From Deltaproteobacteria bacterium (GTDB taxonomy: Bacteria; Desulfobacterota; Binatia; Binatales; Binataceae): a DNA stretch of 64,000 nucleotides. Below, piece after piece: positions 3,523 to 6,083 of this stretch. Position numbers and translations under genes: made by a program. The stretch spans positions 124,001 through 188,000 of the forward strand of contig JAJXYF010000035.1 in NCBI GenBank assembly GCA_021780755.1. The letters are read 5' to 3'. The notes beneath the pieces were generated by a model. It searched no databases and was not told the DNA's origin. It saw nothing but the letters and a program-made list of their open reading frames with translations. How positions within the stretch are numbered: the stretch's first letter is position 1; each line of letters opens with the position of its first letter.

Positions 3523-3688
3523 CTGCGTTACTCCATGAATTCGTTCAAGCAAGTCGGGTTAATTTGCCATCCCGAAGGTCTCCACTGCAAACCACCCGAA
3601 CGTCCACCCGCGCGCAACAATTGCGCATTGGTCGATCCCGCCGGCGAATGTTAGTATCCCCGCAGTCTCGGTCCGTGCGAGGATCACG

Positions 3689-4171
3689 ATGCGAATCCGA
3701 TTCCTCTCCATCATAATGGCACTCGGCGCGATGCTGATGTTCGCGGCACCCGCCCGCTCATTCGACCTCTCGAAGATGCTCGGTAATCCCGATCACGACG
3801 AGGCACTCGACACCTTCAAGCTGATCCACGTCTCTGACCTCGCCGCGGCGATTGCCAACCCCGGCCGCGGCATCATGATTTACGACGCCAATCACCCCGA
3901 CACGCGCACCGAATACGGCATCATCCCAGGTGCGCACCTGCTCCCGTCGGCCGACGGCTACCGGGTCTCGCAGGAGTTGCCGGCCGACAAAAACGCCGCG
4001 CTGGTCTTCTACTGCGCCAATACTTATTGAATTGCTTCACATGAGGCCGCCCGGCGGGCGGTCAAGGCCGGCTACAAAAACGTGAGCGTGATGGTTGACG
4101 GCATCATGGGCTGGAAGGACGCGGGTCAACCGACGGCGGCCGTGGGGAAATCGAAGATCGGAAAGTCCTGA
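3689..4171 (+). CDS. Exported rhodanese-like protein, candidate selenoprotein (in-frame UGA = Sec114)
   Basis: Residues 1-24 form a signal peptide (MRIRFLSIIMALGAML, then APARSF). The following rhodanese fold runs VSDLAAAIANPGRGIMIYDA through a VFYCANTY active-site loop with Cys109. Codon 114 is TGA (4028-4030). The same frame then continues without interruption for 46 codons that are clearly the rhodanese C-terminus (IASHEAARRAVKAGYKNVSV, then DGIMGWKDAG) to a TGA at 4169-4171. Read through, the protein is 160 residues with a C-x4-U pair in the active-site loop. A SECIS-like hairpin begins 14 bases after the TGA. A nonsense mutation or a sequencing error from TGC/TGT is the main alternative, but intact downstream coding and the hairpin favour selenocysteine. 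Likely role: periplasmic sulfur or selenium transfer, or redox chemistry. It is convergent to nothing and lies just upstream of the OPT transporter. Confidence 0.78.
4045..4063 (+). promoter_or_regulatory. Candidate bacterial SECIS hairpin
   Basis: Bases 4045-4052 pair with 4056-4063: eight pairs including one G-U, with a six-pair GC core CCGCCC/GGGCGG and a three-base GGC loop at 4053-4055. The loop starts 22 bases after the in-frame TGA and has G in its first two positions. Bacterial SECIS elements are short stem-loops in the coding region just 3' of the UGA with a conserved G early in the apical loop, recognised by SelB. Spacing and loop fit that pattern. The hairpin also encodes conserved rhodanese residues, so coding constraint alone could explain part of it. 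Confidence 0.6.
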
Positions 4172-4256: not shown

Positions 4257-6083
4257 ATGGCATATAGTTGCGCCGTGGCGCAGACTTCCTCCGCATCGCC
4301 GACCCCCTCCGCCGATACCACCGTTCGCGAATTGACTCTACGCGCCTTCATCCTCGGCGCGCTGCTCGCGATAATTCTAGGCGCCGCCAACGCCTATCTC
4401 GGCCTCTACGCCGGCATGACCGTCTCCGCCAGCATACCGGCCGCCGTCATCTCGATGGCGGTGCTGCGATTGCTGGGCGGCTCGACGATCCTCGAAAACA
4501 ACGTCGTTCAGACTATCGCGTCGGCGGGCGAGGCGGTCGCAGCCGGCGCGATCTTCACATTTCCCGCACTCGTCATTCTCGGCCATACCGGCCCGCTTCC
4601 GTATTGGGACGTCACCATGCTCAGCCTGGCCGGTGGCACGATGGGCAGTCTGCTCGTGGTTTTCCTGCGGCGCGCCTATATCCTTGACGAAGCGCTGCCG
4701 TTTCCCGAAGGAATCGCTTGTGCCCAGGTTCTGCGCGCCGGCGCCGACGCATCGTCAAGCGCCGCACCGCTCGCGGTGGGTGGCATAATTTCTGCCGCGC
4801 TCAAAGCCGCGCAGGATATTTTCGGCTTCGTCCCTGGCACGCTCGCCAGTGCACGATGGATCGGGCGTGCGGCGGTCGCCACCTCGATCAACCTGTCGAT
4901 GGCGCTGCTCGGCGTCGGCTACATCGTCGGCCTCGGCATCGCGAGCCTGGTCTTTCTTGGCGGCGCAATCGGATGGCTGGTGGCGATTCCGCTCGCAAGC
5001 GCCGCTCATCCCGAATTGCGATCGCTCTCCGCTGCCGACGCCGCCCATCAGATCTGGAGCACCCAGACGCGCTACCTCGGCGTCGGTGCGATGCTCGTCG
5101 GCGGCATCGTTACGCTATGGCGTTTGCGCGGCGCAATCGGCCGGGGCCTGGTCGAAAGCGCGCGAATGCTGCGCCATCGCGACACCCTCACCGCCACCCG
5201 CCGCGAGGATCGCGACCTCTCCGCCCCCGCCGTGGTCGGCGCGGTCGCGCTGTGCGTTCCGGCGGTGTTCGCGATCTGCTTCCACTTGAGCGGCAATCCG
5301 TGGCTGAGCGCGGCCCTGGCGATCACGCTAGTCGCGATCGGATTTGTCGCCACCGCCATCGCCGGCTACCTCACCGGCATCGTCGGCGCTTCCAACAATC
5401 CGGTCTCCGGCGTGACGATTATCGTGCTGCTCGCGATCGCGCTAATCCTTGAGGCACTCGGCGTCGGCTCCGCGGTCGGACCGCGACTCGCGATCATGGC
5501 CGGCGCCGTCGTCTGCACCGCCGCCGCGATGGCGGGGGATTCGCTCCACGACCTCGCGACCGGCTACCATGTCGGCGCGACCCCGCGCTCGCTCGAAATC
5601 GCCGTGCTCTTCGGCGCCGTGCTCTCGTCGTTCGTGATGTCCCCCGTGCTCAATCTCCTGATTCGTGCCTACGGCATCGCGGGCACTCCGTCCGCCCACG
5701 CCCAAGCCCTCGCCGCTCCGCAAGCCTTCCTGATGGCAAAGGTTGCGCAAGGCGTTTTCCGCGGCGGCCTGCCGATCGGAACGATGGTCGCCGGCGCGAT
5801 GCTCGCCGCACTCCTCGCCCTGCTCGATGCGACCCTCGAACGCCGCAAGGCGCGCTGGCGGACGCCGGTGATGCCGGTCGCGATCGGTCTCTACCTGCCG
5901 TTCGGCCTCTCAGTCGCCATCTTTATCGGCGCTCTCGCGCGCAGTCTCATCGATGCTCGTCGCGAAGATTCCGGCAGCGGACCGGGCCTGCTGTTTGCGG
6001 CCGGCCTCGTCGCCGGTGAGGCCTTAATGGGCGTTGCGGGCGGCGCGTTAGTCACCTTCGGCATCAAGCTGCCGCTCTATTGA
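4257..6083 (+). CDS. OPT-family oligopeptide/metal-chelate transporter
   Basis: An integral inner-membrane protein (608 residues from the ATG at 4257; a GTG at 4275 is also possible). A longer open frame to 4095 is rejected because it would overlap the C-terminus of the rhodanese and encodes an Arg/Pro-rich stretch. It begins with the OPT signature VRELTLRAFILGALLAIILG followed by an AANAYLGLYAGMTVSASIPAA segment. Many hydrophobic segments follow, with the NNPVSGVTI block and a C-terminal GVAGGALVTFGIKLPLY. OPT proteins import small peptides or metal-siderophore complexes by proton symport. The substrate is not predictable here. Confidence 0.93.
   Translation: MAYSCAVAQTSSASPTPSADTTVRELTLRAFILGALLAIILGAANAYLGLYAGMTVSASIPAAVISMAVLRLLGGSTILENNVVQTIASAGEAVAAGAIFTFPALVILGHTGPLPYWDVTMLSLAGGTMGSLLVVFLRRAYILDEALPFPEGIACAQVLRAGADASSSAAPLAVGGIISAALKAAQDIFGFVPGTLASARWIGRAAVATSINLSMALLGVGYIVGLGIASLVFLGGAIGWLVAIPLASAAHPELRSLSAADAAHQIWSTQTRYLGVGAMLVGGIVTLWRLRGAIGRGLVESARMLRHRDTLTATRREDRDLSAPAVVGAVALCVPAVFAICFHLSGNPWLSAALAITLVAIGFVATAIAGYLTGIVGASNNPVSGVTIIVLLAIALILEALGVGSAVGPRLAIMAGAVVCTAAAMAGDSLHDLATGYHVGATPRSLEIAVLFGAVLSSFVMSPVLNLLIRAYGIAGTPSAHAQALAAPQAFLMAKVAQGVFRGGLPIGTMVAGAMLAALLALLDATLERRKARWRTPVMPVAIGLYLPFGLSVAIFIGALARSLIDARREDSGSGPGLLFAAGLVAGEALMGVAGGALVTFGIKLPLY

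Follow-up and report, generated by a model that had tools for sequence, protein, structure and literature searches.

The gene at positions 3689–4171 on the forward strand of the 64,000-nucleotide stretch of Deltaproteobacteria bacterium DNA analysed here (the window) very probably encodes a genuine bacterial selenoprotein: a single-domain and, as its N-terminus suggests, exported rhodanese of 160 amino acids, in which an in-frame UGA at codon 114 would be decoded as selenocysteine (Sec). The protein appears to be a real, unannotated member of an already described kind of rhodanese selenoprotein, with the motif C-x4-U-x2-S, and the case for Sec is carried mainly by comparison with homologs.

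Gene, reading frame and active-site loop

The frame opens at an ATG (3689), 5 nt downstream of a likely ribosome-binding site recognized in the sequence (GAGGA, 3679–3683, forward strand), and runs for 113 codons to a TGA (4028–4030), beyond which 46 more codons lead to a second TGA (4169–4171). A first-pass annotation of the window had placed the first TGA inside the rhodanese active-site loop and had recognized the C-terminal part of the domain in the 46 downstream codons; translation bore out the former, and the latter agrees with Pfam, where family PF00581 (Rhodanese) matches the read-through protein (residues 61–144; 3.9e-9; 37.3 bits against a gathering cut-off of 22.2 bits) and neither the N-terminal nor the C-terminal half taken singly has a match. 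Standard gene calling cuts the rhodanese at this TGA and loses the C-terminal third. An Rfam scan of the window gave no matches.

The active-site loop reads FYC109-ANTY-U114-IASHEAARRA, with the C-x4 spacing between Cys109 and codon 114 that had been pointed out earlier, and these two residues are the sole Cys and Sec residues of the protein. Cys109 (codon 4013–4015, forward strand) is the rhodanese catalytic Cys and is invariant among aligned copies (33/33). Classical rhodaneses differ at the second position, with Arg at loop +5 (CGGGFR, for example in PDB 6mxv) where the UGA for Sec114 (4028–4030, forward strand) stands here. By inspection, the N-terminus resembles a type I signal peptide (MRIRFLSIIMALGAMLMFAAPARS, 3689–3760, forward strand), which suggests that the protein is exported; three relatives (L033, L036 and L037) have lipobox-like signals in place of the type I-like one.

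Selenocysteine machinery in the source genome

The source genome, an assembly of 3.9 Mb in 42 contigs with 95 percent completeness, contains all four of the decoding genes that the first-pass annotation had named (selA, selB, selC and selD), namely those for a tRNA-Sec with anticodon UCA (73.9 bits), SelA (570 bits), SelB and SelD (380 bits), with SelB and SelD adjoining on contig 17. We infer from sequence that Sec is incorporated in the cell, with UGA114 being read by the genome's own SelA, SelB, SelC and SelD via a hairpin just downstream. The selD gene beside selB has an in-frame TGA of its own (ERCKAAG-U-AGK; L050:1501-2427; C17:91848-92774), which makes the selenophosphate synthetase a predicted selenoprotein too; SelD proteins bear their catalytic Cys or Sec at this site. 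No full-length formate dehydrogenase alpha subunit scored above the cut-off when one was searched for.

Sec and Cys homologs within the class

Homologs with a single TGA were recovered from 28 genomes of the class; in each of the 26 that were read, and at locus L013, the TGA occupied the same codon; a metagenome-assembled genome from a separate record also has TGA at the identical codon. A further 8 genomes had only a stop-free homolog, with Cys at this site in 5 of the 5 read. Across the 33 rows of an alignment of Sec and Cys copies, the column of codon 114 is Sec or Cys in every row, matching the expectation of the first-pass annotation that Cys homologs would align there. These data bear on the reading of the gene as truncated at codon 113 (a pseudogene or an assembly error), with decay accounting for the similarity downstream. 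TGA is formally a stop in translation table 11, and this gene's hairpin is insignificant when taken by itself (see below); against truncation, however, stand the recurrence of TGA, never TAA or TAG, at one codon, a frame intact on both sides and a C-terminal part conserved as well as the N-terminal part, and given the conserved TGA we consider an ordinary stop largely refuted and extremely improbable. Decoding of the TGA as another amino acid, such as Trp, through a variant code or plain readthrough would likewise leave the frame open through the TGA, but homologs without Sec have only Cys at the site, the gene itself terminates at the second TGA (4169–4171) and the genome has the full Sec machinery, and we regard this possibility, too, as highly implausible in comparison with Sec.

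selA was present in 27 of the 28 genomes bearing a one-TGA homolog, and because it was found in 124 of 148 genomes overall, the comparison of Sec presence with selA across the class is uninformative. One genome that is 99 percent complete (G458) has a Sec copy (L057; C142:16785-17183) and no match above the cut-off for SelA or SelB; contamination, an assembly gap or lost decoding are possible explanations.

The tree requires three Sec/Cys changes, and its deep forks are weak, so the direction of change is not fixed everywhere on it. Within one genus, a Sec copy (L018) and a Cys copy (L019) differ by a G-to-C that breaks the stem, the hairpin of the Cys copy being otherwise nearly intact; the pair gives the impression of a recent switch from Sec to Cys accompanied by decay of the Sec insertion element (SECIS). 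In the window's own genus, tandem paralogs occur in three genomes (L015 in G006, L016 in G002 and L017 in G003), each pair comprising one Sec copy with the hairpin core and one Cys copy with a broken hairpin. In another Sec copy (L027; G021:C1:101268-101726), the match extends across a TAG close to the C-terminus as well, and this TAG is probably the true stop. A search of phages for homologs gave no match, and a search of plasmids gave one distant match, in Deinococcus.

A conserved hairpin downstream of the UGA

The putative bacterial SECIS (bSECIS) apical hairpin (GGCCGCCC-GGC-GGGCGGUC, 4045–4063, forward strand) has an 8-bp stem (GGCCGCCC/GGGCGGUC) and a GGC loop that starts 22 nt past the UGA, with a minimum free energy (MFE) of −15.8 kcal/mol. 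The published bSECIS model has a loop of 3–9 nt, a stem of 4–16 bp, a spacing of 16–37 nt, a G within the first two loop positions and an MFE of at most −7.5 (PMC13188914), and the hairpin falls within all of these bounds, in agreement with the stem, loop and SECIS geometry described previously. Taken singly, however, this hairpin is unremarkable for a sequence this GC-rich: its energy was indistinguishable from that of shuffled sequences (z = −0.17; 86 of 200 shuffles folded equally well), and synonymous resampling produced an equally long stem in 146 of 2,000 cases (7 percent). The hairpin was dropped as stand-alone proof of Sec on these grounds, and the selenoprotein case is carried by the comparative data.

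We compared 27 distinct Sec sequences with 7 Cys sequences. The inner five pairs of the hairpin are present in 27 of the 27 Sec copies, around a loop of GGC, GUC or GGA, with U-A having replaced C-G at stem pair 18-30 in two copies. All 27 Sec copies, versus 1 of the 7 Cys copies, have GCC as codon 7 and xGG as codon 9 (Fisher P = 5e-6 for each contrast, with relatedness ignored). Most Cys copies write the same Ala-Ala-Arg-Arg-Ala with GCG/CGC codons, which leaves the hairpin broken; the SECIS core is kept only in Sec copies.

Possible function

With its lone Cys and lone Sec both placed in the active-site loop, the protein most naturally suggests a selenenylsulfide or persulfide-resolving redox pair. 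Under the mechanism that we propose, Cys109 would attack a sulfane sulfur or other chalcogen substrate in the periplasm, Sec114 would resolve the resulting persulfide or disulfide by forming a selenenylsulfide with Cys109, and this selenenylsulfide would then be reduced by a periplasmic thiol donor. We give such selenenylsulfide/persulfide redox chemistry a roughly even chance.

Alternatively, the selenoprotein might reduce arsenate, selenite or peroxides instead of taking part in sulfane-sulfur or thiol chemistry, a role with some precedent, since arsenate reductases are among the rhodanese-fold proteins. A rhodanese-like protein, ExtH, is also encoded in a Geobacter gene cluster, and losing extI from that cluster affects selenite and tellurite reduction (PMC5877670). 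On the other side, conserved partner genes are lacking beyond the family and none of the evidence tested indicates any substrate, and we consider a reductase of this type unlikely, though by no means negligible. The neighbourhood offered no clue to function: the OPT-family transporter gene downstream (4275–6083, forward strand), context only here, is syntenic within the family and not beyond it, an acyl-CoA dehydrogenase/MaoC-type hydratase block on the opposite strand is likewise conserved only within the family, and no neighbours were shared in the other families examined. A structure model built from two sequences was poor (pLDDT 52).

Relation to known rhodanese selenoproteins

The first-pass annotation had described a new selenoprotein. 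Sec at codon 114 is upheld by the machinery, the homologs and the SECIS core; the newness of the kind is not, as five forms of rhodanese selenoprotein, including those with UxxS and UxxxxU motifs, have already been catalogued (PMC13188914). Form 1, a rhodanese-like selenoprotein with PF00581 and the motif UxxS (WP_010941598.1; PMC13188914), is close by motif: Sec is followed by xxS, as U-I-A-S in the window protein and U-M-A-S in most of its relatives, and we infer the identity of the two sites from this motif. The window protein differs from form 1 in being a short, putatively exported, stand-alone domain. A profile search of the phylum recovered distant rhodanese domains, mostly inside larger proteins and many with one TGA, and the best-matching domain at every locus read carries Cys-x4 and then Sec or Cys, mostly with xxS next (UKLS, UVLS, USKS, UGQS and UALS at the same site as in the window protein); where a protein has two domains, the second sometimes lacks the Cys-x4-Sec/Cys pair. 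Since UxxS and UxxxxU forms are catalogued and Sec or Cys occupies the same site phylum-wide, the window protein appears to belong to a known kind.

Among NCBIfam models, the best match is TsoB (NF045694, WP_332113227.1; form 5, UxxxxU, rhodanese/DsbD fusion-like), which all 33 members match (best 4e-13) and which shares the spacing, with its second Sec at C+5. The window protein nonetheless scores 48.3 bits against a TsoB cut-off of 805 bits and is CxxxxU, with Cys in place of the catalytic Sec and, at 160 aa, no DsbD-like fusion. Its score with the rhodanese-related (seleno)protein rhodanese_LYCAU (NF041203; form 3, CxU) is 29.7 bits, where the cut-off is 115 bits, and its Sec is at C+5 rather than C+2. 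The PQQ-dependent CXXCW rhodaneses (TIGR03865) give weak C-terminal matches to all 33 members, with 38 bits for the window protein and a cut-off of 128 bits. No NCBIfam model is dedicated to the small exported single-domain subfamily, and it is in this subfamily that the novelty appears to lie. More tentatively, and with rather less confidence than in the redox chemistry itself, we suggest an undescribed stand-alone exported subfamily whose Cys109-Sec114 loop acts as a dedicated selenenylsulfide redox centre in the periplasm and whose members have recently switched between Sec and Cys. If so, these switches and the tandem Sec and Cys paralogs of one genus would constitute a natural experiment on Sec retention. 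The L018/L019 comparison, together with the pairs in G002, G003 and G006, allows a direct test of what Sec costs an exported enzyme and what it brings.

Two of the phylum loci stand out in their own right. One (L074) has two adjoining rhodanese domains in one frame with a TGA at the same site in each (FYCGGPTU and FYCGGYTU), a possible double selenoprotein. The other (L082), from another family of the phylum, is a 160-residue single-domain frame with FYCSGSTUGQS, similar in size to the window protein.
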